Origin: Taxillus chinensis
Taxonomy: Eukaryota; Streptophyta; Magnoliopsida; Santalales; Loranthaceae
NCBI GenBank assembly: GCA_023512835.1
Contig: CM042092.1
Coordinates: 41,682,258-41,746,257, forward strand
Length of the DNA: 64,000 bases
Direction: 5' to 3'
Part shown: piece by piece, positions 6,349 through 64,000 of the stretch
How the letters are laid out: every line of letters starts with the position of its first letter
Position numbering within the stretch: the stretch's first letter is position 1
Program-made: the position numbers and the translations under genes
The notes under the pieces: model-generated
Database searches by the model: none
What the model was told of the DNA's origin: nothing
The model's input: the letters and a program-made list of their open reading frames with translations, nothing else

Positions 6349-6361
6349 AAGGGGGAGAGGA
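6349..6361 (+). promoter_or_regulatory. Polypurine tract (plus-strand primer) of element A
   Basis: The 13-base purine run AAGGGGGAGAGGA directly abuts the TG start of the 3' LTR at 6362. This is the standard position for the RNase H-resistant plus-strand primer. Confidence 0.88.
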
Positions 6362-6520
6362 TGTAATGACCCATATTTTGGATGTGAGGAATTAGTCAGT
6401 TTTGCCTTCTTAGGTGGAAATTGTTGGGTTTTAGGGAGTTTTCTTTCCACACACTTTGGCTTAATCATCTTGTATGTTGATGAGCAAGCAAGAGACAAAG
6501 TTTGAGCCCAATAGGGAGTG

Positions 6521-6667
6521 CACGTGAGAATGCATGTGAGAATGCTTTTCACGTGCAAGGAGATTTTTGCATGAGAGCCTTCCTGATGTTGTTCCAAGGC
6601 TTGTGGTGAAATTCTAGAGCTTTTGGAGGTGCCCGTGAGAATGCACGTGAGAATGCTTTCTCACGTG
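6521..6667 (+). promoter_or_regulatory. Cluster of four G-boxes (CACGTG) in U3 of LTR A
   Basis: Exact CACGTG hexamers occur at 6521-6526, 6550-6555, 6644-6649 and 6662-6667. They form two pairs, each within a repeated GCACGTGAGAATGC-type context, and lie 180-325 bp upstream of the TATA-like box. G-boxes bind bZIP and bHLH factors in light, ABA and stress responses (established). Control of this LTR by them is inferred. Confidence 0.65.
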
Positions 6668-6773
6668 CAGCCTCCATTACCTTTGTTTTGTTGTTCTGAT
6701 CCTCTTTTGCTAAAGGACCATGGGGAAATTATGAGTGCTTTGTCCTGTATGTTGCAAAAAGGTTGTAGTCTAT

Positions 6774-6797
6774 CATCAAAACTACGTCGTTTTGATG
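6774..6797 (+). promoter_or_regulatory. Inverted repeat around an ACGT core upstream of the TATA box
   Basis: The 9-bp arms CATCAAAAC and GTTTTGATG flank TACGTC. A second TACGTCA-type motif follows at about 6820-6825. Reversed it reads TGACGTA, which resembles as-1/CRE-type bZIP sites. Both are within 75 bp of the TATA-like box. Confidence 0.5.
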
Positions 6798-6845
6798 ATG
6801 GGATTCATTTAATCAAAACTACGTCATTTTGGGGTTTGAGTTGTC

Positions 6846-6854
6846 TATATAAAG
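6846..6854 (+). promoter_or_regulatory. TATA-like box of LTR A
   Basis: TATATAAAG is followed about 60 bp later by a GA-rich leader (GAGAGAGAGAG). This is the usual U3/R layout of a plant LTR promoter. The duplicate is at 23838-23846. Confidence 0.6.
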
Positions 6855-7460
6855 ATGTGAAGACTCCTTGTTTTAGGTTTAGGGTTCTCTTCAGCTGCTG
6901 CAGCCGTCGTAGAGAGAGAGAGAGAGCTTGAGAGAGGGAAGGAAGGGGAGCTGCTGGTTGCTGCCAGAGCGTCTTGCGTGGGGAGGACGGCATCTAGTGC
7001 GGGAGCAAGGAGGATCTGCTTTAAGGTAGGGGTTTTGTCCTTCTTGATCTCTCTCTGTTCTAGGGTTCTTGGGTAGATTATGGTTTATACCTGCTTGTAT
7101 ATATATTATATATGTAAATCCATATAGGTGTGATCTCCTATATGGATGTTGGCCTTTAATGACATTTTTGGTTTGTTTCTGGTGTTAGTGTGATGCATGT
7201 AAAGTGTTCGATAAAATGCCTATGTGACATGCCTGTTACATGTTTAACAAAATGACTGTGTGTATATGCCCGTTACATGTTTGAGAAAATGCCTGTGCGG
7301 CTGGGTTCACGAGCCTGTGAATGTATGCACGCTACATGTTCGATACTGTGTCTGTGAAGTTATGCACACCAAGTGTTTGGTTTTATACCTGTGAGGCTAT
7401 ACATGCTAAGTGTTTTATGTTATGTCTGTGTGACTATGTGTGGCTATGTGTGCTGTGTTT

Positions 7461-7755
7461 TGTGAAACCCGGTAGCTGTGGAAGCTCGGGACTGTTTTGT
7501 GAAACCCGGTAGTTGTGGAAGCTCGGGACTGTTTTGTGAAACCCGGTAGCTGTGGAAGCTCGGGACTGTTTTGTGAAACCCGGTAGTTGTGGAAGCTCGG
7601 GACTGTTTTGTGAAACCCAGTAGCTGTGGAAGCTTGGTACAGTTCTGTGAAACCCAGTAGCTGTGGAAGCTTGGGACAGTTCTGTGAAACCCGGTAGTTG
7701 TGGAAGCTCGGGTCTATTTCATAGAACCCGGTGGCTGTGGAAGCCCGAAATTGTA
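7461..7755 (+). repeat. 37-bp tandem repeats in LTR A
   Basis: Seven near-identical 37-bp units start at 7461, 7498, 7535, 7572, 7609, 7646 and 7683, with a decayed eighth. The core is TGTGAAACCCGGTAG followed by TGTGGAAGCTCGGGAC. The same array is in the duplicated block at about 24453-24740, with small changes. Confidence 0.9.
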
Positions 7756-8272
7756 AATGTTACCTTGTGTGGCTATGGACATGATAGCCTGTGTGGCTGT
7801 GGCAAAGGTTGTACATGTGACTTGTGTGTTGATGTTTGACCGGATTATAAACTGCTTGTACCTTGTTGTCACTACACTGCACTTGTGCACGTCCACATGT
7901 AGATGATAGGAGCATGGGATGGGTCGGGGAGACATGATCCCTACTGAGCTGTGGTTGCTCACCCCTCCTACCGTGTTATTTTCTTACAGGGACCTACATG
8001 CGTTAGGTGGGAACACCAAGTTGGGAGACTTGCTTATGGCTTGCTTATTGTTCTTGAATTTTGTTGTTTTTATGAACTTTGTAGCCCCAGTGGGGAGATC
8101 TTGTAATGTGGAGCTTAATGTAATAAATGTAATGTTTGAACTTAATAAATATTTGGTTTTGTCTCTGAATATAAAATGTGATGTGTACATTGTATTCTAA
8201 CCCCTTTATTCAAACCCGAGTAAAGGGAGGGTCACATTCCGGTCTCCTCGGGTTGGAAATCCGGGCGTGACA

Positions 8273-8421
8273 AGACCACTTGTCATGACCCAAAGCCACT
8301 AGAAAGGAAAGGGTGGTATAAATGATAAGAAGATAGAGAGACATCCGAAGGTCTCCAAGACTACTAAAGTGAACAAATACACTCAGAAGTCTAATCATTC
8401 CAAGCATTTGAGGAAATATAA
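8273..8421 (+). other. Internal 3' region of a family C copia element, upstream of the Ulp1-like segment
   Basis: The sequence right after LTR A belongs to the element that A entered. It has stops in all frames (for example TAA at 8419-8421) and no recognised domain. Confidence 0.5.
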
Positions 8422-8889
8422 TACCTATGTCATTTCTACAAATGTGCGGATTCCAAGACTACTGTCCTCATTACGTACCAGGTCTTGACGCCGCACTTTA
8501 TGTTGGTTGCTTTTCTGATTCCGTCCAAGCAGTTGATCTTGATTGATTCTCATCAGGTTGTGGATAACAACATTAGAAAGAATCAATGGGAACCATTACA
8601 TCTTCGACTGACCAAAACAGTAAAGCAATCCAGGCTTTATGAAGAAATGGGCCAGACTCCCTTGGCTCCAACTGAAAAGCTGAAGGCGGCAGTCCGGAGC
8701 AAGAAGCAAGTGCCACAACAGCCCGATGGAGATAGTTGCGGAGCCTTTGTCTGCTTCTTCATCAAATCATTTATAAAGGTGGATAAAAATGTGAACAACA
8801 TCCGCAACTATACATTGGAGCAGACAATGGAGCTTAGAGAGAGGGCAGTGACAATGATCTTCAAGTATAGTAAGCCTTATGTACCTTAA
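8422..8889 (+). CDS. Ulp1/C48-like cysteine protease C-terminal domain carried by retrotransposon family C (partial)
   Basis: The frame is open from 8422 to TAA at 8887-8889, with no clear ATG. Visible catalytic set: His in TPHFMLVAF (8494-8496), Asp in LILIDSHQ (8545-8547), Gln in QQPDGDSCGAFVCFF, and nucleophile Cys in DSCGAF (8737-8739). The His-Asp gap (17 residues) and Gln-Cys gap (6) match those I recall for yeast Ulp1. C48 enzymes process SUMO or remove it from proteins. The N-terminal part is missing. It ends 145 bp before the family C LTR. A related C-terminus with the same DGDSCGAFVCFFIKS block sits in the same place next to another family C LTR (63810-64000), so it belongs to the element. 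Whether it is expressed is unknown. It could be a captured host gene tail. Confidence 0.75.
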   Translation, partial: YLCHFYKCADSKTTVLITYQVLTPHFMLVAFLIPSKQLILIDSHQVVDNNIRKNQWEPLHLRLTKTVKQSRLYEEMGQTPLAPTEKLKAAVRSKKQVPQQPDGDSCGAFVCFFIKSFIKVDKNVNNIRNYTLEQTMELRERAVTMIFKYSKPYVP

Positions 8890-9020
8890 TGTAAAATTCA
8901 TGTATTAAGGCAAGATTGTACTTTGTTGTTGATATAATGAAAATGGAAGTTATCTTTATTCTGTATATTATCTTTGTGCTTCGCTTACCAGATTAGATTA
9001 CAAAGGGTTTTGACATATCC

Positions 9021-9034
9021 ATAATTGGGAAGAT
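9021..9034 (+). promoter_or_regulatory. Polypurine tract of family C (copy at 9035)
   Basis: ATAATTGGGAAGAT directly precedes TGTTGG. The equivalent tract at 63667-63680 (minus) reads TAATTGAGGGAGAT, which supports this position as the plus-strand primer. Confidence 0.7.
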
Positions 9035-10447
9035 TGTTGGATCAAACCCCGAATTTGGATGATGCGGATAAAACCCTATGTAATTTGATTTGAGACATTG
9101 CATGTTTTATCTTAAGTTGTTGCAGAAGATATGAGCTTAATCCGGACCTTCAATTGTGAGAGCAAAGCTAAGGACATGATACATAATCCTGATTCGGACA
9201 AGAGTGAGTGTTGTCAAACACTTGGTAAATAGCCAAGTCTACACTTCATACGGAATAAGGATCATTCGTGCAGACAAAACACTTAAAGCTACAGACTAGG
9301 GAATCTGCGTCTTAGAGTTTTAAACGTCTAAGTCAAATAGATGCGGAATAAGAATCCTAGTCTATAACTCGCACAGAGTAAGAGAAAGTCATCGCGGAAT
9401 AAAAACCTAAGTCTTCCACTCAAGCGGACTAAGGAAAAGAAGACACGGAGTAAGGAATCCGAATCTTCCATACATGCGGAGTAAGGAACGACTTGTGTGG
9501 AATAAGGACCCAAGTCCTTATTCGCACGGAGTAAGGAAAATAGATGCGGAGTAAGAAATCCTAACCTTTTACTCATGTGGAGTAAGGTTGCACTGATACG
9601 GAGTAAGCCATCCGAACTTTTACCTCATGTGGAGTAAGGAAGCGCTGATACAGAGTAAGCCCTCTGGACTTCTCTTTTATACAGAGTAAGGAAGCGCTAA
9701 CACAGAATAAGGATTCCAGTATCAAACTGACACGGAGTAAGCAATCAATGATAGGGAGTAAGGATCCGAGCTTCATTAAAACAAAGTAAGGAACTTTACA
9801 ACGGATTAAGAAGATGCTGCTTCAACTTATCTCTTCGCATTCAAAATAGTCAGCTCGCTGCATCCTGATGTAAGACAAACTCATTGAGAACCTAAAACAT
9901 CTTACACATGGCTCACACGGATAGGTGGACATAACTTTAACTGCACCTCGGAACTCACAAAGACACTTATGCTTTACAAATCCAAGATCTTAAACTCCAC
10001 ATCCGCAGCAATCAAGGTAGAGAAGTTACTGAGGAACAGTCAATGCTGCAAGTTGCTCGGAAGAACAAGTTCCAAGGATGCTCCCAACAAATGGCTATAT
10101 ATTAGACCTTGTATATTTTCATATGAGTTGATGTTAAGCGCGCGAAGTGTAATAGAAGATATATACGTGCATGTATGTACTAGAGCTAAAACAAAGATAT
10201 TGGCTAGTGTGTGAGTGACTTGTAAACAAAGTGTTAGAGAGTTTGTTTAGTATATTGAAAAGCTTTACAAGCTTTAATCTGCTATATTTTGTTGTAATTA
10301 TCATTTGCTAAAAAATAAAATACTTTCACTATCTGTTATCTCACACATTGATCTTATCTCTTAACCAACATTAGTGTTGCGCCTAGAGTAAGAAAAGAGT
10401 TTCGATAAAAGCCTATTCACCTCCCTCTAGGCTTCCAGGGATCAACA
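9035..10447 (+). mobile_element. Family C copia-type 3' LTR
   Basis: The 1413-bp LTR runs from TGTTGGATCAAACC to GGGATCAACA. It is identified by comparison with full copies at 59649-61057 (+) and 62275-63666 (-), which share both ends. The first is followed by a tRNA-Met PBS and a copia gag. It holds an array of the GGAGTAAGG motif (about 9340-9790). Its last 60 bp contain the strongly conserved GCCTATTCAC and CTAGGCTTCC strings. Confidence 0.88.
9340..9790. repeat. Degenerate GGAGTAAGGAATCC motif array in LTR C
   Basis: About 15 copies of a short core, ACGGAGTAAGGAATCC and variants, are spaced roughly 25-40 bp apart. The same core recurs in all family C LTRs and in separate arrays at 21595-21955, 23445-23696, 40403-41060 and (reverse) 62880-63440. 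Confidence 0.8.
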
Positions 10448-11451
10448 AGAAGAATGCCATGCAGGTTACTGAGAAGCGAAAAAAGGAAAAAAAGGAAATT
10501 TTATTATTCTATTTGACAATTTTAACTGATGGTTTTGGTTTTTGGGATCAGTAAAACAATCCAACTTTCAATAAAATGCGAAAAAATGAGTTTTGGACTC
10601 GGAGCGTCACGAGTAGCAATCCCGTATCTTTTTTTTTCTTGAAAATGAGTTTATTTTTATGTCATGACTGCACTACATGTCCCGAAATCGCTTTATTACT
10701 GAAAAGGTTTTTTTTTTTGAAATTAAGCTCTGTGAGCAAAGATATGCAATATATACATCAAAATTCTCAAAATGATAAAAGGAGTAAGAAGATGAGGTTT
10801 TTGACCTGATTCGGAGTGCCATTTTGAATATGGGCCGCTAATTGACCATTATTAGCGGTCCAAATATGGTTTTGATCATAACTTCCTCGTTTGACCTCGG
10901 ATTTGAGCATGGTCAAAGGCGTTGATACTCAAATTTGATTCTCTATCACATCAGACTAGCTCATAGGCATTTGAAAGTCTTTTTAAAGAAGTCATTGAAG
11001 CTGCACCCTTCGAATCGATGATCACATCTCTTTATTTATCTATACAAAGTGAGTAACGAATATAAAAAGTATAAAGCAAAAAAATAAATGTATATGTCCA
11101 ACCCTGACAAAATAAGGTCCAACAGATATGTAGGTATTAAAAAAAATCACTGGGTGGCAACTTGGGCGCGTGATATTTTTGATGCGCGGCATATTTTGGA
11201 TGAAATGTAAGTGTTACCGGCAACAAATTAAATCCCTCTTTGATGCTTATACCAAATAAAGAAAAAACAAAAACAAATACACACACTCTTATTTATCAAC
11301 GACACCACACACACTCTCCCTCATTCATTGACGAACCTTAGAACAGTTTTACACTTCCTTCTCTCACGTACCCACCGGGCCAAAACAGGGAAAGAGAGAG
11401 AGATCTCTGATCACAGCTAGATTCCCTGGCGCTTGAGACAGACAAAACTCG
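10448..11451. other. AT-rich spacer with a dispersed repeat piece
   Basis: No gene is seen. The stretch 10872-10974 (TTGATCATAACTTCCTCG onward) and 11096-11131 (TCCAACCCTGACAAAATAAG) are recognisably related to 22166-22256 with 22447-22484, and to 57030-57233. They look like fragments of one repeat family. The segment 11290-11440 is pyrimidine-rich then GA-rich and could be a leader for the frame at 11452. Confidence 0.5.
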
Positions 11452-11839
11452 ATGATGGTCGCCAGATGTGGATGGTTGGTTGGTGGATGCTCGTGGATAA
11501 CCATAGGAGGAGCGTCGAGAGTTGTCAGAGAGCTATTAAGGTCATGGGATGAGATTCGCTTCTTCTTCTTCTTTTATGATACGTCTTGGCTCTTGAGGCT
11601 TTGGGATGACATTGAATCTGCTAGCAGTGGAGATGGAGAATCGGTCAAGGAGGGGGAGCCTAAGAATGCTCTTCGGCTAGGGGAGTTAATCAAGAGGTTG
11701 ATAGTTTTATCTTGTGAATCTATTGCCGAAGTTGGTTCTTGCAATGTGTTCTTGGTTGGGACTAGACAAGTTTCCCTGGCAAGTGTTTCATTTGATCTTG
11801 TTCTTAAAACTACTTATTTGTTTGGTTTTGATGAAGTTG

Positions 11840-11892
<53 letters not shown>
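11452..11892 (+). CDS. Hypothetical frame ending in an AT microsatellite
   Basis: This is an open frame of 146 codons from an ATG-ATG pair. It has a Trp/Arg-rich start, a Phe run, a Glu/Lys-rich middle (about residues 60-80) and a Val/Leu-rich end. No domain is recognised. The C-terminus is read from a (TA)n microsatellite (Ile-Tyr repeats), so the real end, if any, is earlier, perhaps a splice donor. The frame is kept in the duplicate at 28449-28865 apart from two residues and the microsatellite length. It may be the first exon of a former gene or chance. Confidence 0.25.
11844..11891. repeat. (TA)n microsatellite
   Basis: The dinucleotide run is about 48 bp. The duplicate at 28841-28864 has only about 24 bp, one of the larger length differences between the two 17-kb copies. 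Confidence 0.95.
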
Positions 11893-11895
<3 letters not shown>

Positions 11896-13056
11896 TTATG
11901 CTTGTTCATGACAAAACTGTTAGTATATCAATGCGCTGACATCATGTTTGCATTTCGTAAGAATACATTGGTTTGCAAAGGAATAGTAAAGCTTTTATTT
12001 GTCTAGTGTTCTTCGAATAAGATGGGAATGAGAAATTCTAAATTCTATTCCTTTATTTGGTAAATGACAAATTGTTATGGAATGACGAGGTATTAGATTT
12101 AGATGATATAACTGATAGTAGCTTTCTTGGATGGACCAATCCCATAAAGAAGTTCAGGCCGTGATAAGCTATTTGAAATAGCATGTCAGATAATTTCTAC
12201 AAGTCAGCTACCTGCTTTTAATTTTCGGCCTACTGTAGTAATGTTTGCATCCTTTATCTTATAATATGTTTCTCCTACTATAGGTTATTTTCTTGGAGTT
12301 ATGTTCAAGTCGGGTGGCTCGTGGCTTTATTGACTCCTCAAAATTTGATGGTTCGACTTCTTTGGTTTAGAACTCTTTCTAAGAATACATTTTAGTTGCT
12401 GTTGTATAATTTAAGAAACACCAGAAATGACCTTGTAAAGTAAAAAATTGAAAGTCCCTCTAGGATGGACTTCAAAATAATTTTAAGTATACATATTATA
12501 TTAATAATTCATATCAGTGTGGTCGATCTTTTGGGCATTAAAATGTTTGTTTTTTCAGTTTGGCCGATCTTTTGGGTTATGCAATATTTTAATCATGATT
12601 CAGTTTGTTTCATTTGATTTTCAATACAGAATCAAGATCTTGGTGTATATTGTTCTAAATCAAAGTCTGGCTTTGGGTAATTTCATGAAAGTAATAAATC
12701 ATATTGACTATCTGTCCTACAATTTATGTTTCATTGAAGAAAGTAGAAAATTTGTTTTTATGGCATGATCTCTCGACAAACAAGCCCTAAAATAAGTACT
12801 TAGAGGTACTTATGTTTTTATGTTTTTAGAGGTACTTGTTATACTCACCCTAAAATTATATATGTAGTCCAAATGTGTGCCTTCACCCTAATTCTATTAG
12901 TTGGAATAAGTGTAGCAATAAAGGAATTTATATGGTTATTTACAAGTATTAGCATCAACATCAAAAGTCTGTAACACCTTATGTCCTTGTGTTTAATAAT
13001 TTAATTAGATACATATATTGTATTGTAACTTTTAGGTTTTAGAAAGACTTTTTAAT
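11892..13056. other. AT-rich spacer without recognised features
   Basis: Frames are broken throughout. Short open frames such as 12517-12768 resemble no family and are copied unchanged in the duplicate only because the whole block is. Confidence 0.5.
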
Positions 13057-13064
13057 GTAAGTCC

Positions 13065-13859
13065 TAGGGATGGGCAACGAATACCCGTCCCCGTTACCCC
13101 GCCCGCTATCCGCTTCGCCCCCGCTATGCGGGGCGGGTAACCCCGCCCAAGCAAGAGCGGGGTGCGGTTTTTAAACTTGACACCCCGCTCCAGGCGGGGA
13201 CGGGGAGCGATAATAGGTAGCGGGGTACCCCGCCCCGCCCCGGCCCCGCCTAATTTTAATATTGTTTATTTATAATTTTATAATATTTTAAATATGATTA
13301 TTTAACTATTATTTATGATTTTTAATATTTTTGAATGATATTTATTATTGTAAAATTAAATTATTTTTAATAATTTTTTGGTTAAAAATGATGTAGAAAT
13401 TTAATTTAAGCCAAAATTATTGATATGGACATATCTAATAAAAAGCGATAACAAGATGTAAATAAATCGAACCTCATTCGCAGACACATTAAAGAACAGT
13501 ATATCCTATCACGCCTATATATGGAACGAGATATAATCTTAAAATTTAATCTACTACCTAAACGAGGACAGGATGCGGTAATAGGTTGATTCCGACTCTG
13601 ACAGGACTCGAATTACTTCTATCAACTGCTTCGTGGAGCCTCTAAAAAGCAAGATTGTATTAAGAAATAAATCAATAAAAGTCGATAGCGGGGTGCGGGC
13701 GAATGAAGCCTCCCCCCGCTTACCCCGCCATAGGACGGGGTACCCCGCCCCGCCTACACATGGGGCGGGGTACGGTTTTAAAAAATTTTACCCGCCTAGG
13801 CGGGGGCGAGGTACGGTAATAAGTAGACCCCGCCCCCGCTATGGCGGGTAGCACCCCTA
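13065..13859. mobile_element. Non-autonomous hAT-like element, GC-rich ends
   Basis: The 795-bp element is bounded by a perfect 8-bp target duplication GTAAGTCC (13057-13064 and 13860-13867). The ends read TAGGGATGGGCAA and, reversed, TAGGGGTGCTACC, which fits the (T/C)AGGG(A/G)TG start of hAT elements. The first and last 200 bp are rich in GCGGGG/CCCCGC blocks that can pair. The middle (13260-13680) is AT-rich. No transposase is encoded. Confidence 0.85.
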
Positions 13860-13867
13860 GTAAGTCC

Positions 13868-14143
13868 TTATCATATGTATTCGTAAATTTGGTCCCTAAA
13901 GTTATTACTTTCAGTATGTGACTTTCAATTGCTATTTATTTATTTTTCCAGTGGGTGGAACCATAATTGTTTCAATATGTGACTTTTAGTATGTGACTTT
14001 CAATTGTTATAAAGATAATATATTATTTTATTATACTTGTCTGATAAAAAAAAAATTGTCCTTTCAAATTCCACATACTTTTCAGCTGTGTTAGTTCCCA
14101 TAATTTCTCACAATTTATATGTCACATTTTCCTTACTATATAG
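13868..14143. other. AT-rich spacer, probable intron of the ATPase remnant
   Basis: No coding features are seen. The end of this stretch (CTTACTATATAG) looks like a splice acceptor for the exon at 14144. Confidence 0.4.
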
Positions 14144-14692
14144 TGTTGAGCCCTCTCATAAAGGATGCTTGTTGAAGCATTGCAATGCCATAATGAAGTG
14201 GTCGGTCAGTCTCTTATTCAACTTAACCATTGATGATTATATTTGCAATAATCTTGAATGACTTTTAGTTCTTCTGTACTAACATTTTTACATGGGTCTG
14301 ATCATGTTGGATTATTTTAGTCTGATTGGGATATTGCTCTAATATTTTGGCCAACCTTTAAAATGTTCTTTTTTTGGTTAATAAAACACTTTCTCCTGCT
14401 CGTGCGAAGATAAGCCATCGAATTGCAGGCCCATAGTTTATTTTAATATTTGATTATAAAGCTCAAAATTTATTAATATTTTATTTTTAATTAGGCTTCT
14501 CAACTACTTCTAGAATCTTTCATATTTTCATGTAACCTCCATACATCATTGCATTCTTGTAATTGATATTAAATTTGCACCTTCACGTTTTCTTATTACA
14601 ATTTTTTGTGGTTCATTATTGTTGGATGCATCATGGTTTTCCTAGAATCATTTTGAAAATTTCCTTACAGTTCTTGGTAAACTTAATGGCCA

Positions 14693-14747
<55 letters not shown>

Positions 14748-14847
14748 TCATAAGGTTGATATGGCTGGTGATGGAGTCAACGATGCGCATGTGCTAAAGA
14801 AAGTAAGCATTGGAGTTGCAATAGCTTTTGGAACTGTTGTTGCCAAG
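14144..14847 (+). pseudogene. ECA3-like P-type Ca2+-ATPase remnant: two exons and an intron
   Basis: Exon A, 14144-14200, begins after TATAG. It reads VEPSHK, then, after loss of one base, MLVEALQCHNEV. Exon B, 14755-14847, is flanked by AG and GT. It reads VDMAGDGVNDA then LKK, and ends GTVVAK. Joined by phase, they match the conserved hinge of type IIA pumps (VEPSHK..., then the GDGVNDA motif that coordinates Mg2+). They are closest, from memory, to plant ECA3, an endomembrane Ca2+/Mn2+ pump. The frameshift in exon A, the missing phosphorylation and transmembrane exons, and substitutions (His for Pro after GDGVNDA) show it is dead. It could be a gene fragment captured by a transposon or a relic of a resident gene. 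The intron holds an ATT microsatellite. Confidence 0.72.
14692..14748. repeat. (ATT)n microsatellite in the ATPase intron
   Basis: The trinucleotide run is about 57 bp. The duplicate run at 31650-31713 is longer by about three units. Confidence 0.95.
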
Positions 14848-14859
14848 GTCCTGTCCTAG

Positions 14860-15191
14860 TGGCCTTCTCATTTATTTTACTTGTTTATGTTGTGATTGTG
14901 AAAGTCCATAAATTAAACCAATCATTGGGAAAAATTCAAGAAATAAAACATGAAAAACTAACTACTAGACTACATCGAATACACGTACGTAACACAGAGA
15001 GTGCTAGTCCACCTCAATGAAGTTCCCAAGAAACAACTTTGCTTCTTAACTTTTGAAAACTGAATATATAAGGAACTAGGTTATTTGTGCAACAAGTTTA
15101 AAAGTTTTATATTCATTATATTTCTTTTTTTTTTTCCCATTTTTTATGCTTGGTTATTTTATATTCATTATATTCATTTTATTTTTTTATT
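14860..15191. other. AT-rich spacer
   Basis: Nothing is recognised between the ATPase exon and the truncated family C LTR. It ends in a T-rich run. Confidence 0.5.
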
Positions 15192-15634
15192 CTTGAGCTC
15201 CACATCTGTAGCAGTTATAGCAGATGTATTGTCTGAGAAGTCTTCAATGCTACACACTGCTCGAAAAATGCTATTCCAAGAATGTTTCCTAGGGATGTCT
15301 ATATATACTTAGTCCTGTATATTTTCATAAGAGTGCGTACATGTGAAAGAGCTTAAAGAATTTCATTTTTGGCTAGTGTGTGCGTTACTGTAAAACAGAG
15401 TGCTACTGTAAACAGAAGAGAGATACACTTTCAGTAGATCCAAAAGCTTGTACTCAGCTTTAATCTGCTACAATCTGTCGTAATTATCTTGTGATAATAA
15501 TATAAATTACTTTCACTATCTGGTTGTCTTTCGCATTAATTTTGTCATTAACTAGATCAAGTGTTGCGCCAAAGAGAGTGAGAAGAGTTTTTAAAAAGCC
15601 TATTCACCCCCCTCTAGGCTTCCTGAAACCAACA
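15192..15634 (+). mobile_element. Family C 5' LTR, 3' portion only
   Basis: It starts at CTTGAGCTCCACATC, which corresponds to about 420 bp before the end of the full LTR at 59649-61057, and ends CCAACA at 15634. The first ~1 kb of the LTR is missing, so the truncation is on the left side. Confidence 0.85.
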
Positions 15635-15636
15635 AG

Positions 15637-15649
15637 TGGTATCAGAGCA
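15637..15649 (+). promoter_or_regulatory. Primer binding site (initiator tRNA-Met type)
   Basis: TGGTATCAGAGCA begins 2 bp after the LTR end. It is complementary to the 3' end of plant initiator tRNA-Met, the usual primer for copia elements. Confidence 0.92.
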
Positions 15650-15703
15650 CGTTCTACCTACTCAACGTAGAGATTCCTCTCTCTCTCTCTCTCTAATGCT
15701 TAA

Positions 15704-18406
15704 ATGGCCGAAGAAAGCGACGATACTATTCAACGCTCGCATCAACTCCAGGTAGTGCTCAATAGCCTATCCCCGACCCCAGTAGCAATGACAATGTTGA
15801 TCTGAGCACAAGTGCTGAAACCACTGTTGCTCCTCAACAACGGAGTTCTGGATTCACTCTTACCAAACCGCCAAAATTCACACCTGAGCTTTTCTCCCAA
15901 TGGAAAGCTCGCATGCGCATGTTCATGATGTGCCATGATTATCTCATATGGCCCTATCTTCATCAGGAGAATCCTATTCCAATGACTATCAAAGGCAATG
16001 GAGTAATAAGAAGGCCAAAGACTGACATTGAACTCACTAATGAGGAAAGAGCCTGGCGATGCGAAACGAAAAGGCTCTAGCCTATGTTACGTCATCGTTG
16101 GATTCCAAAGCTTTCACGGACATCCAGTGCTGCACAATAGCGAATGCTATCTGGGATAAACTGGCAATCCTCTTTGAGGGAAGTTAGTCTCAAATGCAGA
16201 ACGTTATTTGTGCTCTCAGATAGGACTTTGAGAGCTTTACACACAAACCTGGTGAGTCCCTTGAGAGCATATACCGAAGATTCTTCAAGCTCATTCTAGA
16301 ATTGAAAACTGTTAATGAGCGTTATTCTGACTTTCAGATAAATGACAAGTTCTTTCGTTCCTTGCCGGATTGTTACTACTCCAAACAGCTCCAGATGCAG
16401 GCCAATAACAATTGGCAATGTGCTTCCCCGGAAGAAATCTACGAAGAGCTACAAACTCATAAGATCATGTTTAAATACTCTGACCGAGATGAGAAAATAG
16501 CTCGGAAAGAAAGGGGAGTAGCTCTTAAAGCTACAGAGTGTTTAAACACTTAGCACGAGGATGAAGAGGAAGAGTCAGACAACACTGACTCAGATGCTGA
16601 ATAGAAGATAACCCTTCTTGTCAAATTGTTTGAACGATTTCTGAGAAAGAGCAAAAGGGGAAGCAAAATAGGATCATCCTCATCCTCCAGAAGGAAAGAG
16701 TGATCGGAGTTTACTTCCCAAGGACTACAAAGCTAAACCCAAGGCGGCCGACAAGAGTGACAAGGTTAAACCCCAGCGCTCTACCTCGGATTATAATAAG
16801 AATAAGAGGAAGGCGTTCGTCTCAAAGTACAGAAGTGGCTCAGAAGAAGAGGAGGAATCCTTTGATGACGAACCAACAGAGAAGCCGAACATCTGCCTCA
16901 TGGCAAACACTGAGGTACCTTCTACCTTTGAGCTCATGAGTAGATTAGAATCTCTTACTGTTGAACGTGATCATAAAAAGAATGAGAGATTAATAATTAC
17001 TCAAATGTACCATGACATAAGTGGTCAAACTAAGCGTCTTGAATTCACTATTTCTAATCATGGAACTGACTTAGCCAATTTAAGGAGTAAAGAGGTTTGG
17101 TATCACAATCATAGAGCCGAGAATCATTTACTGAACACCAACCTAAATGGCCTAACTGTAATCTTAAAAGACTCGAAGATGAGCTTGACAAGGAAAAGGA
17201 AACAAACCGTAAGTGGCTAAAATTAGGAGAAATAGTTTCTACGTTTAGGACTGATCCGGATGATACTCGAGTCAAACCTGGCCTAGGCTCCGAAGCATCT
17301 ACTTCCACGTTTGTCATTGAGTGCCCCTCAGATTTCACTTCCAAACTAACAAACCTATATCCTGTTAGTACATCTAAACCATTGGATGGATTTGTTTCAG
17401 CTGGCACCATAGTTTATGATTGTGCAAGTGAGGCTGTTACTGCTAATCTCGAAGTAGTAGCACCCGTACCTAAAGATAAAGGGAAAGCTACTACAGTTAA
17501 ATCCGATACTGTAGCACCCAGAAAGAAAGGAAAGGCTAAGGCTGATGCATCTAGGGCCAAGAGCACGTCACCCAATTGCAAAGGATTAGGCCATAGGGAA
17601 CATAGTAGAAAAAATGTTAAACCAAAAAAACTAGTATCCCCAGTTTGTACTCTGCATCATAGTGTCTATTCTATCTATAGAGAAATAGGCCATTATCATT
17701 ATGAGTGTTTGAGTCTATATGATGACTGGCTTTGTAATCAAGTTCACATTAATAAGGATCAGTTCATCAAAAAGGGTTCTTCTAGCAAATCAAAGTCTAA
17801 ATCTCAAAGCAGTAACTCTCCCAAGAAAACTGAAGTAAAAGAAGCAACTGACACTAACAAAGTAAAGTCAACATGGAAAGCTAAAGTTCCTAACAAAGCT
17901 AAATCTGGAACTATTGACTCTGTCACTGCTTCTCCTAACCGCCCGAAACAAGTTTTGGCACCAAAAGTGTAATCTATTGTCTTGCAGGAGAATCTATGGA
18001 ATTCACTCCCAGCCCACTTGAAGTCAAAGATAAATCAAAGTAAGTGGATACTCGATAGCGGATGCTTCGGACATATGATGGGTGATAAGAGTTTGCTCGT
18101 GGACATCACTGAGAAATGAGGACCATTCATATCATATGGCGATAATAGCACAAGTAAGACTATGGGGTATGGCACTCTAACTAACGGTTGTGTATCAATT
18201 ACAAAAGTTGCACTAGTCGAAGGTTTGAAGCATAATCTGCTGAGTGTCAGTAATTTATGTGACAAGGGATTCACTGTTTTATTCCTGTCCAATACCTGCA
18301 CAGTTAGGGAAAACCTATCCGGAGATATTAAGTTATCTGGATCAAGAGATGGGGACATATATTCAGTGATCTTAAGAAATAATTCTTTTGGTCCTATATG
18401 CTTCCT
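15704..18406 (+). pseudogene. gag-pol: Copia-type gag, protease and pre-integrase remnant (family C, copy 1)
   Basis: It begins ATGGCCGAAGAAAGC at 15704. A UBN2-type gag follows (PPKFTPELFSQWKARM, then CHDYLIWPYLHQE, AIWDKL, ESIYRRF, INDKFFRSLP). The first zinc knuckle present in the copy at 61118 is removed by a deletion of about 38 bp near 16715. A degenerate second knuckle remains (CKGLGHREHS). Then come a Ser/Lys-rich stretch, the protease site ILDSGCFGHMMGDKS (about 18050) and the GAG-pre-integrase block VALVEGLKHNLLSVSNLCDKG. The coding sequence stops at about 18406 where LTR sequence takes over, so integrase, RT, RNase H and the Ulp1-like segment are deleted. Frameshifts and stops are frequent; some differ between the two 17-kb copies and may be base-call errors. 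Confidence 0.88.
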
Positions 18407-19041
18407 TACAACGGACTAAGACGACACTGCTCCTACTAATCAGCTCCACATTCAAAGTCATCAGCTCACTGTGTCCCAATGTAAGAAAGATCCATTGAAC
18501 ATTTGTCATCTTACATGTGGATCACTAGGATGCGTGGACGAAGCCAATAATGTAGTTGGAATCATGCGAAGCAATTCATTACACTTATACTTCCAACATC
18601 TTGAGCTCTACATCCGCTGCAGTTATAGCAGGTGTATTTTCCGAGAAGTCTTCAATGCTACACACTGCTCAGAAAATACTGTTTCAAGAATGTTTCTTAG
18701 GGATGTCTATATATACTAAGTCTTATATATTTTCATAATAGTGCATACATGTGAAAGAGATTAGAGGATTTCATTTTTGGCTAGTATATGCATTACTATA
18801 AAACAGAGTGCTACTGTAAAGTAAGAGAGATACACTTTTTGTAGATCCAAAAGCTTGTACTTAGCTTTAATTTGCTACAATTTATTGTAATTATCTTGTG
18901 ATAATAATACAAATTACTTCCACTATCTAGTTGTCTTCCGCATTGATTTTATCATTAACCAGATCAAGTGTTGCGCCAAAAAGAGTGAGAAGAGTTTTTC
19001 AAAAGCCTATTTACCCCCCTCTAGGCTTCCCGGGACCAACA
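18407..19041 (+). mobile_element. Family C 3' LTR, 3' portion only
   Basis: The join to protease sequence is at CTTCCTTACAACGGACTAAG. In full LTRs the matching string is ACTTTACAACGGATTAAG, so a short shared TTACAACGGA may have guided the deletion. The LTR ends CCCGGGACCAACA at 19041. Confidence 0.85.
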
Positions 19042-21594
19042 ACATTGACTGCTAAAAATATACCATTCACTGAAGGATAAATTTAGCTATAGGGTTCACT
19101 TCAGATTTGGGAAGAATAATAAGATTATTAGATTTAATGCTAATTGAGAAAGTGCATAAGTATTGGGTGCTCAAGAATTGTGTCATCTTCTTGGTAACAT
19201 TGTGAAGAAGCAAATTGGAAAGTAACCGGGCAGAATTTAAGTAATCATTGTGAATATTTTTCTCTAGGTTCTCATTCAGGATGTTAACTGAATAAGTCCT
19301 GATTTGCGCTTGGAGTTCAATAGAATTAGTGCATTGAAGTTTAGATCTTGGTACTAGCCTAATTTCAAAATGTTATTCCAAATTTATATTTTCCCCATCA
19401 TTTATCAAATTCCCATTTGAAGGGTGCCTAATTTTTTGTTAAAAGTTCATGAGAATGGTTTCTTGTGTTACTTTGCTTTTTCTCAGGCTCATTTGATTTT
19501 GCTCCTATTCCCATTTTCTTTTTCTCAATTCTAATTTTTAAATATGAAATATGAATGTTTGGTTAATCGTTTTCCAAATAATTAGGAGTGGGATCAAAGA
19601 AGGGTTTAAAAGTGGGGTTCTAATTTTTACGATTCCACTGTTCCCATAACGTGTATTTGATTTTCTTCCTAAAATCCTATGAAAAATAACTCTTAAAATC
19701 CCATGAAAAATAATATAAAATGCAATATTTTGCTGGAGCTTTTGAATGTATATTTAAATATTGTTGTTATTTTGTTCCTTGGTCTTTTTTTTTTTGAAAT
19801 GCTTTGGGTATTTTAATGGTATTCATTAATTATAGCCCAATATGGGCATTGTTTAGACATTATGGCTTTTGTGCTTTGCCCCCATGTGGGCTTATTCTAT
19901 TTGGCCTTATGGCCACTTATTTCCCTTTATTAGGTTTTCTTTCTATGGTCACTGTCATCACTGGTCTTTGTCCGGGCCCATTTGGGGTGGGCTCAACCGA
20001 AACCAATGGTGAGAAATTTAGAGTCGCCACCAACTGTTTTGGGGTACAGTTGGATACCCTCTACTTTGAGTAGTTTAAGATATGGTCAGCGTTATCAGAG
20101 AAGGGTTCAGGAGTTGGTTACGTGTAGGAAAGGATTAGCACCTCTATAATGCCCTTTCGGTATCTATTTTCGGAGGAGGAGGTTTCTACTTATTTTCACT
20201 GCTGTGATTGGGTTGAGTTTCCTAGAAAGTCTATGCTTTTTATTTAGCTAAGTTATTTGTTAAAGTTATGGTTAAAATTGATTTACCCTAAATCTCTAAA
20301 GGGAATCCAACATGTTTTGTTTTGCTTTTGCTATGGAAAAAGAAATCCTAAGATTTTTTTTGTTTTATTTTGTTTTGTTTTTTTGAAAAGTGAAGTTCTA
20401 AAAAAAATTAAAATTAAAAATAAAATAAAAAAAAATTGAAAAGTTTTTTTGTTTTGGTTTTTTGGTTGGAATTTTTTTTTTGTTTTTTTGAAAGAATTAA
20501 AACTAAGAACTAATACATGTTTTTTTTGTTTTTTCAAAATGTGTTTTTTTTGTGAAAGGATAAAACTATGAACTAACACAGGTTAAACAATAATATATAA
20601 AGTTGTATGTGTAATTGTGGCATCCACAAATCAAATAACAATTCAGTCTTTTTTTTTCTTCATCTTCTCTTTTTTTTTTTTTGCCTCTCTTTACTCTCCT
20701 TTTTTTACTATATTTTACATATTACAACGTACAACATAAAAAGAAAAATATAACATACACCCACAACATAAAAAAAATACATATAATATAAATATAAATA
20801 AGCTAAAAATAAAGACTAGAAAAATACTAAAAATTACATCAAATATAAATACAAATAAGTTCAAAAATAAAGACACAAATGCAAATTCAACACTGGACTT
20901 TTGTTTGAATTACCCTATTCGCACTGAAAGTCACCTGCTCACCCAAATCACCAAATTGTAGTGGCGCAAATTATGAAAATCAGCTGGGGTTTAATCTGAA
21001 GATGGTAGGGGTATGTTAGAGTTGAGAGAAATTGATGAAAAGGATTTAAATGTGATAGAGAGAGGGAAGATATATCTTTTGGGCTGAAACTATGAGAGAG
21101 ATTTTTATTTTGGGTGAGAGAACCCGTACAAGAGAGGAGTGAGAGAAGGAGGATTTTTGGAAAGGGAACTCGTAGGAGAGAGAGAGAATATGGGAAGGAG
21201 AGTTTTATTTTATTTTTTTATTTTGGGAAAAGGAGAGAATTAGGCAAACATCTGGATATTCCTCTCTGGGCGTAAGTCTCAGGCGAAGGGAAAGAGTTTG
21301 GGGGTAAGTCTTCTTGTGCGAGGGGAAGGACCTCCTTTTTAATTCCTTTGGACGTAGCCTCATTATTGCTGCATTTATTGATGTATTATTCATGCCAACA
21401 TTTTTTATTTTTGGATTCCATCTTATGTTGGGTGGACTGACGACCTATGATTGCCCTTTTTGGTTTCATATGAGCACATGTGACCGACAGGCATTGAAAA
21501 GCATCTGCACAGCTAATACAAACACATCCCATGAAGAAACAGTGAATGAGCGAAGGTCAAAGGTTGGTGGGGTCGAAGTTAGTGGAGGCTTGGA
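19042..21594. other. Long AT-rich spacer with remnants of an unidentified LTR element
   Basis: No coding region is found. The stretch 19990-20070 contains GAGAAATTTAGAGTCGCCACC-like sequence, a type I recall from leader regions of plant Ty3/gypsy elements. 20330-20560 is dominated by T runs, 20730-20880 by A runs, and 21010-21300 by purine (GAGAG) runs. Small open frames here have no family resemblance. Confidence 0.45.
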
Positions 21595-25267: not shown

Positions 25268-25417
25268 GAAGACCACTGTCATGACCCAAAGCCACTAGAA
25301 AGGAAAGGGTGGTATAAATGATAAGAAGATAGAGAGACATCCGAAGGTCTCCAAGACTACTAAAGTGAACAAATACACTCAGAAGTCTAATCATTCCAAG
25401 CATTTGAGGAAATATAA

Positions 25418-25846
25418 TACCTATGTCATTTCTACAAATGTGCGGATTCCAAGACTACTGTCCTCATTACGTACCAGGTCTTGACGCCGCACTTTATGTT
25501 GGTTGCTTTTCTGATTCCGTCCAAGCAGTTGATCTTGATTGATTCTCATCAGGTTGTGGATAACAACATTAGAAAGAATCAATGGGAACCATTACATCTT
25601 CGACTGACCAAAACAGTAAAGCAATCCAGGCTTTATGAAGAAATGGGCCAGACTCCCTTGGCTCCAACTGAAAAGCTGAAGGCGGCAGTCCGGAGCAAGA
25701 AGCAAGTGCCACAACAGCCCGATGGAGATAGTTGCGGAGCCTTTGTCCGCTTCTTCATCAAATCATTTATAAAGGTGGATAAAAATGTGAACAACATCCG
25801 CAACTATACATTGGAGCAGACAATGGAGCTTAGAGAGAGGCGGTGA
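25418..25846 (+). pseudogene. Ulp1/C48-like protease domain (duplicate, frameshifted at the end)
   Basis: This is the duplicate of 8422-8889. The His, Asp, Gln and Cys positions and the DSCGAF block are kept. One residue after the nucleophile region is changed (Arg in place of Cys in GAFVRFF). The C-terminus shifts frame at GAGAGGCGGTGAC, where copy 1 has GAGAGGGCAGTGAC. The change sits on a CAG triplet and may be a base-call error rather than a mutation. Confidence 0.72.
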
Positions 25847-26027
25847 CAATGATCTTCAAGTATAGTAAGCCTTATGTACCTTAATGTAAAATTCATGTAT
25901 TAAGGCAAGATTGTACTTTGTTGTTGATATAATGAAAATGGAAGTTATCTTTATTACGTATATTATCTTTGTGCTTCGCTTACAGTTAGATTACAAAGGG
26001 TTTTGACATATCCATAATTGGGAAGAT

Positions 26028-32600: not shown

Positions 32601-32602
32601 AG

Positions 32603-59648: not shown

Positions 59649-61057
59649 TGTTGGATCAAGCCTAGAATTTGGATGATGCAAATAAAACCCTGTATAGTTT
59701 GATTTGAGATCTTGCATGTTTATTCTTAAGTTGTTGCAGAAGATATGATCTTAATTCGGACCTTCACTCATGAGAGAAAAGCTAAGGACATGATATATAA
59801 TCCTGATCTGGACCATCGTGAGTGTCGTCAAACAATTGATAAATAACCAAGTCTTCATACGGAATAAAGATCACTCGTGCGGACCAAATGTTTAAAGTTA
59901 TGGACTAAGGAATCCGCATCTTACAATTTAAATGGACTAAGTCAAATAAATGCGGCATAGGAATCCTAGTCTACATCTTGCACGGAGTAAGAGAAAGTTA
60001 TCACAAAATAAAAAGCTAAGTTTTCTACTCAAGCGGACTAAGGCCAAGAAGACACGGAGTAATGAATCTGAGTCTTTCATACATGCGGAGTAAGGAATGA
60101 CTTGTGTGGAATAAGGACTCAAGTTCTTTAGTCACGCGGAGTAAGGAATCCAAACCTTATACTCAAGTGGAGTAAGGATGTGCTAATACAGAGTAAGCCA
60201 TCCGGACCTTTTAACTCATGCAGAGTAAGGAACTCATGTGGAGTAAGGAAGTCGTGCGGAGTAAGGAACTTGTGTGGAGTAAGGAAGCGCTGATACAGAG
60301 TAAGCTCTCTGGACTTCTCGTTCATATAGAGTAAGGAAGCGCTGACACGGAATAAGGATTCCAGTATCAAACTGACACGGAGTATTCAACTACTGACACG
60401 GAGAAAGGATCCGAGCTTCATTAACATGGAGTAAGGAACTTAACGACAGATTAAGAAGACCCTACTTCAACTTATCAGCTTCGCATTCAAAGTCATCAGC
60501 TCGTTGTGTCCCAATGTAAGACAAACTCATTAAAAACCTAAATCATTTTACATGTGGATCACATGGATATGTGGACATAACTTTAATTGCATTTGGAATC
60601 ATGCAAAGTAATTCAAAGTTTAAAGACCCAAGATCTTGAGCTCCACATCCGCAACAATTGAGGTAGAGAGATTTCCGAGGAACAGTCAATGCTACATGTT
60701 GCTCGGAAGAACAAGTTCCAAGAATGTTTTCTAACGGATGACTATATATATTAGCACTTGTATATTTTCATATATGCACGTACATGTACAAGAGCTTTTA
60801 GAGATCATATTGGCTAGTGTGTGAGTCATTGTAAACAGAGTGTAAGAGAGTTACAGTAGATCGAAAAGCATTATTAGCTTTAATCTGCTATTGTTTTGTT
60901 GTATTTATCTTTTAATAATAAGAACAAAATACTTCCACTATCTAGTTATCTTTCGCACTGATTTTATCATTTAACGAGATAAGTATTATACCAGAGACGA
61001 TCAAAAAGTTTTCAACTAGAGCCTATTCACCCCCCTCTAGGCTCCTAGGGACCAACA
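59649..61057 (+). mobile_element. Family C 5' LTR (full length)
   Basis: The 1409-bp LTR runs TGTTGGATCAAGCC to GGGACCAACA and is followed by a PBS and gag. The GGAGTAAGG array is at about 59985-60430. It is inserted in the copia gag remnant on its left. Confidence 0.92.
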
Positions 61058-61059
61058 AG

Positions 61060-61072
61060 TGGTATTAGAGCA
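61060..61072 (+). promoter_or_regulatory. Primer binding site of the family C element at 59649
   Basis: TGGTATTAGAGCA is one C-to-T change from the tRNA-Met complement seen at 15637. Confidence 0.88.
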
Positions 61073-61117
61073 AGTCTACCTGCTCAAAGTAGAGATCCCA
61101 CTCTTTCTCTATTAACA

Positions 61118-62274
61118 ATGGCCGAAGAAAGCAGTATGTTGTTTAATGCTCGCCTTAACTCTAGAGGTGCACAAGAGCCCCTCCCCAACTGCAGTAGCAA
61201 CGAAAATGTCGATCCGAGCACAAGTGCTCAACCCGCTGCTCCCACTGCTCCTCAACAACGGAGTTCTGGCTTCACTTTGATTGTACCGCCAAAATTCACA
61301 CCTGAGCTTTTCTCCCAATGGAAAGCTCGCATGAGAATTATCATGATATGTCATGATCACCTCATGTGGCCGTGTCTTCATCAGGAGCTACCTATTCTGA
61401 TGAGATGGCCAAAGACTGATGCTGAACTCACCAATGAGGAAAGAGCCTAGCAGTATGCTAGTGGAAAGGCTCTAGCATACGTGGTATCATTTTTGGACTC
61501 CGAAGCTTTCACAAATGTCCAGGGCTGCACGATAGTGAAAGCTATCTGGGATAAACTAACACAATCCCCTATGAGGGAAGTCAGTCCCAAATGCAAAACG
61601 TTATTTGTGCTCTCAAACAGAACGTTCAGTGCTTTTCTCATAAGCCTGGCGAATCCTTTGAAAGCATCTATCAGAGATTCCGCAAGCTCATACTAGACCT
61701 GAAAACTGTCAATGAGTATTACATGCAATTCCAAATCAATGACAAGTTCTTTCGCTCATTGCTGGATCGCTACTACTCCAAACAGCTCCATATGTAAGCC
61801 AACAGCAACTAGTAGTATGCTCACCTCGAAGAACTATATGGAGAGCTACGGACTCACGAGGTTAAGTTTAAATACTCTGACGGACATGAGAAAATAGCTC
61901 GGAAAGAAAAGGGGGTAGCTTTTAAAGCTATGGAATGTCTAAGCATCCAACGGGATGATAATACGGAAGAGTCAAAGAACTCTGACTCGGACGTGGAAGA
62001 AGAAATAGCTCTTCTGGTCAAATCTTTCAAGCAATTCCTAAAGAAAAGCAGAAAAGGATTTAGAAGAGGCTCCTCATCATCCAGAAAGAAGGAGCGATCA
62101 AAGTCTACTTCCCAAGACTGCTACAACTGTGGGAAACCTGGTCACTGGGCCAAGGATTGTAAATCCAAATCAAAGACAGCCGATAAAAGTGACAAGGTTA
62201 AACCCCGATGCTCCACCTCAAAAAATAGCAAGAACAAGAGGAATGCGTTCGTTACAAAGTACGTCAGTCGCTCA
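61118..62274 (+). pseudogene. gag: Copia-type gag with intact zinc knuckle (family C)
   Basis: ATG is at 61118 (MAEESSMLFNARLN). The UBN2-type gag is recognisable from PPKFTPELFSQWKARMR through AIWDKL, ESIYQRFRKLILDLKTV and INDKFFRSLLDRYYSKQL to a Glu/Asp-rich and then Lys/Arg/Ser-rich stretch. The zinc knuckle is CYNCGKPGHWAKDC (about 62119-62160). TAG at 61448-61450 replaces the Trp in RAWQYA of the copy at 32669; a frameshift lies near 61575 and two more TAGs near 61795-61815. The frame 61930-62274 is then open until sequence homology ends at the inverted LTR. This is the best copy for the zinc knuckle, which is deleted in the two duplicated copies. Confidence 0.88.
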
Positions 62275-63666
62275 TGTTGGTCCCTGGGAGCCTAGAGGGG
62301 GGTGAATAAGCTCTTATCTAAAACTCTTTTATTACTATTTGGCACAACACTAATCTAGTTAAGAGATAGAATCACTTTGGAAGACAACCAGATAGTGGAA
62401 GTATTTTGTTTTATTATCAACTGATAAGTACAACAAAATAGAAGCAAGACTCTCTTACACTTTGTTTACAAAATGACTCACACACTAGCCTCTTTGATCT
62501 CTATGAGCTCTTGTACAAATACACTTATTTCAAACTCACGAACAATCACCCTTTTTTAATGTACAAGTGTTACAATATATATATAAATATCCTTGAGAGA
62601 CAATCTTGGAACTTGTTGTTCCGGACTATGTGCACATTGACTGTTCCTCAGGAATCTCTTTGCCTTGAATGCTGTTGCGGATGTAGTCTTCAAGATCTTG
62701 GGTTTGTAAAGCATAAGTGCCTTTGTGAGTCCCCAAGTGCAGTTAAAATTATGTCCACATATCCGGGAGATCCACGTGTAAGGTTCTTTAGGTTCTCAAC
62801 AAGTTTGTTTTACATCGGGACTCGGCGAGCTGGTGACTTTAAATGCGAAGAGATAAGTTGAAGCAGCGTCTTCTTAATCCGGTGTAAGGTTCCTTACTCT
62901 GAGTTAACTAAGCTCGGATCCTTACTCCGTGTCAGTGATTGTTTACTCCGTATCAATACAGTACTAGAATCCTTATTCCATGTCAGCGCTTCCTTACTCC
63001 GTATGAATAAGAAGGTCGGAGTGCTTACTCCGCATCAGCGCTTTCTTACTCCGCGAGAGTTCCTTACTCCGCATGAGTTAAAGGAATGGATTGCTTACTC
63101 CGTGTCAGCACATCCTTACTCCGCATGAGTGAGTAGTTCAGATTCCTTACTCCGCATCTAGTTTTTTTACTCCATGCGAACAAAGGACTCGGGTCCTTAT
63201 TCCGCACAAGTACTTCCTTACTCTGCATCTATGAAAGACTTGGATCCTTATTCCGTGTCTAGTTTCCTTAATCCGCTTGAGTGGAAGACTTAGCTATTTA
63301 ACTCCGTGACGACTATCCCTTACTCCGTGTGACTTAGTAGACTAGGATTCTTACTCCGCATCTATTTGACTTAGTCCGTTTAAAATGTTAGGCGCAGATT
63401 CCTCAATCCGTAGCTTTAAGTGATTAATCTGCATGAATAATCCTTATTCAGTATGAAGCAGAGACTTGGTTATATACCAAGTGTTTGACGACACTCACTC
63501 ACATCCGGATCAAGATTATGTATCCTGTCCTTAGCTTTGCTCACACGAGTGTAGGTCCAGATTAAGATCATATCTTCTGCAATAACTTAAGATAAACAAC
63601 GAAAGTCTCAGATCAAATTACATAGGGTTTTATCCGCATCATCCAAATTCTGAGCTTGATCCAACA
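62275..63666 (-). mobile_element. Family C 3' LTR of a second element in reverse orientation
   Basis: The 1392-bp LTR runs TGTTGGTCCCTGG to GATCCAACA on the + strand, the reverse complement of the family C LTR. It cuts the gag of the forward element at 62274. The possible target string GCTCA (62270-62274) cannot be checked because the far end is outside the window. The motif array is at about 62880-63440. Confidence 0.92.
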
Positions 63667-63809: not shown

Positions 63810-64000
63810 CTAAGGTACATAAGGCTTACTATACTTGAAGATCATCGTTGATGCTTTCTCCCTTAGCTCCATTGTCTGCTCCTTCGTATAGGCTTGGATA
63901 GTTTTCCAGCTTTTATCCATGTTTATAATAGATTTGATGAAGAAACAAACAAAGGCTCCGCAGCTATCTCCATCGGGTTGTTACGGCACTTGCTTCTTGC
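63810..64000 (-). pseudogene. Ulp1/C48-like protease C-terminus (reverse family C element, cut by window edge)
   Basis: On the minus strand the frame runs from the window edge to a TAG at 63812-63810. It reads QPDGDSCGAFVCFFIKS, with the nucleophile Cys, then a diverged stretch (MDKSWKTIQAYTKEQ) and the conserved end MELREKA..TMIFKYSKPYVP. A TAA stands for the first Gln of the QQPDGD string. The arrangement (protease tail, ~140 bp, PPT, LTR) is the same as at 8422-9035, but the sequence is clearly diverged, so this is an independent element and not part of the 17-kb duplication. Confidence 0.75.

Follow-up and report, generated by a model that had tools for sequence, protein, structure and literature searches.

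We read the feature described here as the 3' end of a Sirevirus-type Ty1/copia retrotransposon of Taxillus chinensis, in which the extra 3' gene, standing in the place of the envelope-like ORF, encodes an N-terminus with a weak PF20167 resemblance, a linker and a Ulp1-like protease domain of family C48 (probability about 0.85). This reading draws on the position of the gene, its recurrence across the genome, its collinearity with copia pol, a catalytic triad present in most copies and constraint at the level of codons. The 3' gene is integral to the element, and was formerly or is still under selection.

The window, the whole 64,000-nucleotide stretch that was analysed, is C9:41682258-41746257 of a 521-Mb assembly of 264 contigs. 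On its forward strand the open frame at 8422-8889 matches PF02902 (Peptidase_C48) with E 5.4e-6 and 26.8 bits, above the cut-off of 20.7. The catalytic codons are His 8494-8496, Asp 8545-8547, Gln 8719-8721 and Cys 8737-8739. The spacings of 17 from His to Asp and 6 from Gln to Cys are, we take it, those of yeast Ulp1. The initial annotation had proposed a C48 catalytic domain with these spacings lying directly before an LTR, and both the domain and its placement were borne out (Table 1). Homology to other family copies begins only at 8461, and positions 8262-8470 used as a query matched nothing in 21 oriented stretches, so that the forward copy is what is left, after rearrangement, of a longer gene. 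The gypsy LTR that truncates it contains 37-bp tandem units.

The unit recurs on the reverse strand at the far end of the window. There the initial annotation had the arrangement right and the coordinates wrong: 63810-63666, which it gave for the unit, is the spacer, and the Ulp1 part, with one in-frame stop, occupies 63810-64000 and is truncated by the window end. Aligned with the forward unit, the reverse one is 87.7% identical in Ulp1, 85.1% in the spacer and 84.4% in the LTR. Beyond the LTR end (10447/62275) the homology breaks off, so both strands share the unit but not its flank. The shared C-terminal frame, at first put at about 35 residues, extends over at least 62 codons and the stop. 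Following the reverse element past 64000 into an extended stretch (L030), as had been suggested, revealed recognisable copia pol collinear with Ulp1.

A third Ulp1 copy, at 25418-25846, had been overlooked. It is part of a 17-kb tandem duplication (6704-23696 against 23697-40654; 98.8% identical, with 118 substitutions and 60 indel events), which rules it out as an independent insertion. The duplication may be either biological or an assembly artefact. The gag of the deleted element at 15191-19042 was recognised through its duplicate, where Retrotran_gag_2 matches 32729-33148 (E 1.5e-8). Other repeats also occupy the window. Degenerate CGGAGTAAGGA-type repeats occur on both strands, in LTRs and elsewhere, at 9300-9800, 21570-21960, 23440-23700, 40400-41030 and 60000-60450. 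Repeat copies at 42397-44638, 51131-53343 and 53372-54840 share about 89-93% identity among themselves and 81-87% with parts of 1322-2563. The short stretch VDMAGDGVNDAHVLKKVSIGVAIA at 14755-14850, translated by eye, resembles a P-type ATPase exon.

Table 1. Features of the Ulp1-bearing family and neighbouring elements in the window, and the second C48 lineage in two fetched stretches
Feature	Position	Strand	Basis or remark
3' LTR of Ty3/gypsy element, truncating the 5' part of the Ulp1-bearing copy	6361..8271	+	bounds by eye
Stretch between gypsy LTR and Ulp1 homology	8272..8460	+	matchless in 21 oriented stretches
Ulp1-like (C48) gene, C-terminal part	8461..8889	+	PF02902, triad spacing, start of family homology; open frame 8422-8889
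Spacer, with decayed polypurine tract at about 9026-9032 and AT attachment dinucleotide 9033-9034	8890..9034	+	alignment with reverse copy, 85.1%
3' LTR of Ulp1-bearing element, TGTTGG...CAACA	9035..10447	+	alignment with reverse copy, 84.4%
Deleted related element: LTR remnants, gag, protease-like region (last by eye)	15191..19042	+	Retrotran_gag_2 on duplicate
Second Ulp1 piece, in 17-kb tandem duplication	25418..25846	+	98.8% identity; PF02902 E 3.2e-4, 21.0 bits
5' LTR of related element, with AGTGGTATTAGAGC primer site and then gag behind it	59649..61057	+	sequence comparison
Primer-binding site and gag region with CCHC zinc knuckle	61058..62274	+	zf-CCHC E 8e-9 in 61816-62292
3' LTR of reverse-strand element, inserted in gag of another element	62275..63666	-	alignment
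Ulp1 C-terminus, independent insertion	63810..64000	-	alignment; continued in L030, as far as RNase H-like sequence of copia type
Second, divergent C48 protein lineage	L012 629-2867		sequence comparison
Second, divergent C48 protein lineage	L022 8989-9999	-	sequence comparison

The Ulp1-carrying copia family is very abundant. With the window ORF as query, the genome returned at least 150 scored places among 7,638 candidates, 72-100% identical. We examined 80 copies (ranks 3-82, of 148 outside ranks 1-2), fetched as 20 stretches of 10 kb and 60 of about 780 bp; L numbers denote fetched stretches. An LTR lies downstream of Ulp1 in 73 of the 80, at a spacing of 144-157 bp in 66, while no LTR start was found within 330 bp downstream in the other seven (L012, L025, L035, L040, L042, L072 and L085). 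The stop falls right behind residue 155 in 78 copies. The junction is exactly TGGGGGAG/AT/TG in 39, and GGGGGAG/AT/TG or TA in 44. Four further LTR starts of the family were present in the fetched stretches: two belong to 5' LTRs, with a primer site following, one to a 3' LTR with the polypurine tract and Ulp1 before it, and one shows neither feature.

The initial annotation had called for whole units with LTRs on either side of Ulp1, and one of the copies is such a complete element. It spans 13,150 bp (C1:57676151-57689300) and holds a 5' LTR, copia integrase domains, Ulp1 and a 3' LTR. Pol_BBD, gag_pre-integrs, rve and SH3 of copia type lie upstream of Ulp1 on the same strand in L014, and the 5' LTR, 93.8% identical to the 3' LTR, is in L029, directly upstream of L014. 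Its 5-bp flanks read GAGAT on one side and GAGAC on the other, a single-base difference. The two LTRs have diverged by a K2P distance of 0.0658, corresponding to 2.5 Myr at 1.3e-8 substitutions per site per year and 4.7 Myr at 7e-9.

Copia integrase, RT or RNase H was collinear with Ulp1 in six of the 20 long stretches (L010, L014, L017, L018, L024 and L027; RVT_2 is present in L017) by translated search at E 1e-8. The same search detected no recognisable copia pol of this kind upstream of Ulp1 in the other 14. Among these, collinearity of L011 sets in at the RNase H end and holds at the DNA level only. L021 and L022 are collinear with L014 only from behind pol, L022 by way of a neighbouring second copy, and L028 from the linker onward, with gaps. 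Nine others are cut off inside the gene or are missing more; one of these is L026, where another RT, 47% identical, adjoins the Ulp1 piece. A genome search with RNase H returned mostly residues 1-107, and thus other families too; among the 150 places listed, by eye, Ulp1 lies 3.5-4.1 kb downstream of at least three, apart from the window element, and the N-terminal domain of the gene lies 1.6-1.8 kb downstream on the same strand at no fewer than five. The limited pol collinearity leaves our confidence unchanged, since the complete element carries the argument. The proposal that Ulp1 is an extra 3' gene of a copia-type LTR retrotransposon therefore stands, on that element, the collinear pol and the LTR behind most copies.

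The longer open frames (L031-L034) encode an N-terminal region, a long linker of low complexity rich in Ser, Pro and Ala and a C-terminal C48 domain. The N-terminal region weakly resembles PF20167, a domain of plant transposons, in L032 and L034 (E 1e-4, 22.7 bits, cut-off 45). The linker contains a basic PKRSRF stretch, which could be a nuclear signal, and a coiled-coil-like stretch recognised by eye. The N-terminal domain was found at 150 or more scored places of 7,529 candidates, and the C48 domain follows 1.8 kb further on at at least seven of the 150 listed, one of them the query itself (by eye). Scores against PF02902 are above the cut-off of 20.7 bits in L021 (28.1), L027 (28.2), L033 (26.8) and L034 (22.9), and below it in L012 (16.0), L022 at 1501-2256 (15.0) and L031 (20.5). 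Among the 80 copies His is kept in 79, Asp in 75, Gln in 62 and Cys in 66. By these sequence features the domain is of the Ulp1 family (C48) and its product a putative protease; the label of deSUMOylase is speculative. A protein database search with the Ulp1-like protein gave no match at E 0.001 (four candidates), scans of viral contigs found no relative, and NCBIfam had none. Solved proteases matched this first Ulp1 lineage weakly (best E 0.078; E 0.74 in a profile search of solved structures), and the fold predicted for the domain from a single sequence was uninformative (pLDDT 36).

Codon patterns point to selection. Pairwise dN/dS across copies, a comparison proposed in the initial annotation, had a median of 0.233 and was below 1 in all 2,926 pairs, which are non-independent (77 of the 80 copies; three of other length were dropped and stops skipped). 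In 600 sampled pairs the true frame gave 0.237 and the other five frames 0.40-1.27. Mean differences at the three codon positions were 0.144, 0.092 and 0.211. The window pair alone had dN 0.12 and dS 0.61 over 61 codons, a stop-bearing codon being dropped. Overall divergence of the coding sequence equals that of the LTR start (0.149 against 0.146, 68 copies), so the signal of selection lies in the codon pattern and not in greater overall conservation. Distances in Ulp1 and in the LTR were weakly correlated (Mantel r 0.18, 24/2,000; 68 copies).

Many copies are decaying. An in-frame stop occurs in 57 of 80, the Gln position is lost to a stop in 16, and the catalytic Cys has become Tyr in 14, among them six of the 23 stop-free copies. 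Losses of Gln and Cys are scattered over a tree of 77 copies. The Tyr substitution requires 12 changes on this tree against a mean of 12.3 when shuffled, so the Cys losses look like decay, and a catalytically dead clade is ruled out.

Non-coding signatures, compared with those of PMC2829016, probably place the Ulp1-bearing element among the Sireviruses (SIRE lineage). The PBS junction CA/A(T or G)TGG/TATCAGAGC is present without mismatch at window 15633-15648 and likewise in L023 (reverse); it has one mismatch at window 61058-61071 and two in L029 (AGTAG/TATCAAAGC), and in L019 the PBS is exact and the LTR end altered. The terminal polypurine octamer matches AGGGGGAG at seven of eight positions, with AT/TG kept, in 39 of 80 copies; that of the window copy itself has decayed. 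At least one exact AGGGGGAG octamer occurs in the linker in eight of the nine stretches that hold it (none in L014), mostly just after pol. Around the polypurine tract the seven copies scanned have an inverted repeat with arms of 19-20 bp in three, 16 bp in one and 11-13 bp in three, counted without a shuffled control. C-rich integrase signals, judged by eye against the published description only, stand some 20-30 bp from the end of the LTR: TTCACCCCCCT near window 15600 and 61020, and TTCACCTCCCT at window 10416. The window LTR has two CGGA-N-TCCG motifs (null mean 0.03) and the L029 LTR none; repeated CGG-CCG motifs in LTRs were found in 13 elements of the Sirevirus set cited.

The element thus resembles the Sireviruses with an eORF-3'F or ENV-like gene, as described in PMC2829016 and PMC6317226, in its PBS junction, its AT/TG site, the octamers of the linker, the inverted repeat around the polypurine tract, the C-rich signal, an LTR of near 1.4 kb, the 13-kb size and an extra ORF 3' of pol. 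It differs in that a recognisable Ulp1-like protease forms the end of this ORF, the terminal octamer begins with T, and the extra octamers precede the ORF, whereas those described sit near the 3' LTR. According to PMC6317226, 74% of SIRE elements have a 3' extra ORF; these ORFs fall into 19 groups that share little similarity, and the paper raises the question of whether they function at all. The main text of that paper has no occurrence of Ulp1; its Additional file 4, on the domains of such ORFs, may hold this case. Among the titles, abstract openings and passages covered by our literature search, Ulp1 in a plant LTR retrotransposon was not found.

Ulp1-like domains are known from DNA transposons. 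The Kaonashi/KIU VANDAL MULEs and other Ulp1-bearing MULEs, in the passages of PMC13317346, likewise carry a C48 domain, and related VANC proteins have a candidate anti-silencing role; these MULEs are DNA transposons without LTRs, and the Taxillus chinensis gene has a PF20167-like N-terminus. The grapevine CACTA elements with ULP1 (PMC2528002) and the Ginger1 transposons (PMC2836005) are alike in linking a C48 domain to a mobile element, but are DNA transposons, and the C48 domain of Ginger1 forms part of a fusion with its transposase.

The same genome also holds a second, divergent and abundant C48 lineage, at 119 or more scored places. The copy in L022 shares 28% identity with the first lineage (E 4e-16) and matches SENP1 across the catalytic triad and core (E 1.1e-4). 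The copy in L012 stands behind a weak PF20167 match and lies 1.35 kb before GTGTGGGGGAATT/TGATAACG, which resembles a gypsy-type polypurine tract with the LTR start after it. Through the second lineage the His-Asp-Gln-Cys C48 core is seen to be like that of SENP/Ulp1 SUMO proteases (PDB 2iyc, 1euv), to which the first lineage is weakly similar. A genome search with PF02902 brought up 4,308 candidates, of which 150 or more were scored, with every scored place over the cut-off; by eye two or more of the 150 listed belong to the second lineage. C48 domains look hugely amplified in this assembly.

The Ulp1-like protein would be made from the RNA of the element and may be a nuclear protease that acts in trans, its targets being ubiquitin-like or SUMO-like modifiers. 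Its likeliest use, which we hold tentatively and as a matter of judgement, would be to remove SUMO or a related modifier from the chromatin or silencing factors of the host, allowing the element to be transcribed. Both SUMO removal and the countering of host silencing are speculation. An anti-silencing use has an analogy in the VANC proteins of VANDAL MULEs, which strip silent marks according to passages of PMC10398659; some VANC genes carry Ulp1, as stated in part of the review PMC13317346. Against such a use, a section heading of PMC6084981 states that the MOM1-SUMO interaction is not required for silencing.

In our judgement the idea that ranks next, possible but rather doubtful, is that the protease serves the element itself by processing or de-modifying Gag, integrase or the particle. 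That the gene shares its element with pol fits this, but C48 enzymes act on ubiquitin-like modifiers, and copia elements encode an aspartic protease of their own. We find it improbable that a Ulp1 fragment was captured once, as in transduplication, and has been copied since as a functionless passenger. Passages of PMC13317346 and PMC2528002 describe Ulp1 capture by MULE and CACTA transposons and attribute captured gene sequences to maize Sireviruses; the stops in 57 of 80 copies and the equal divergence of coding sequence and LTR start point the same way. However, the median dN/dS of 0.23, an in-frame value below those of all five other frames, an N-terminal domain kept at 150 or more scored places and the similar layout of the second lineage in L012 argue against a passenger. 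Equally hard to favour, and if anything more improbable, is a pseudo-enzyme whose C48 fold binds the modifier and can dispense with catalysis. The Tyr in six of 23 stop-free copies would suit it, but the Tyr copies form no clade, His, Asp and Gln are mostly kept, and G-to-A decay explains the change from TGC/TGT to TAC/TAT.

Finally, the elements of the family might have inserted in or beside a Ulp1-bearing DNA transposon, the explanation that the initial annotation had named as the one to exclude. Seven of 80 copies have no LTR start in the 330 bp downstream and many other C48 loci exist, but 66 of 80 copies share the same spacing, 39 have the exact polypurine junction, and one element holds both LTRs, pol and Ulp1. 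LTRs, a polypurine tract and copia pol surround Ulp1, where a MULE or CACTA element would have terminal inverted repeats and a transposase. The complete element and the collinear copies rule out chance insertion, and we give an accidental neighbour virtually no weight.

The preferred reading, an extra 3' gene of a Sirevirus-type element, provides one SIRE extra ORF with a domain and a catalytic site and shows the mark of selection on it, so that its function can be assayed and need not be guessed. The long-debated extra genes of copia-type retrotransposons thereby gain a testable identity. It is conceivable, and on present evidence unlikely, that the genes called 'envelope-like' in several lineages of plant LTR retrotransposons encode, in place of envelopes, nuclear Ulp1-like proteases whose N-terminus is PF20167-like, selected to undo modifier-based silencing by the host and taken up by more than one superfamily in the same genome. 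If the protein is a modifier protease that aids its element, ideas discussed so far for DNA transposons with Ulp1 would apply to retrotransposons as well.
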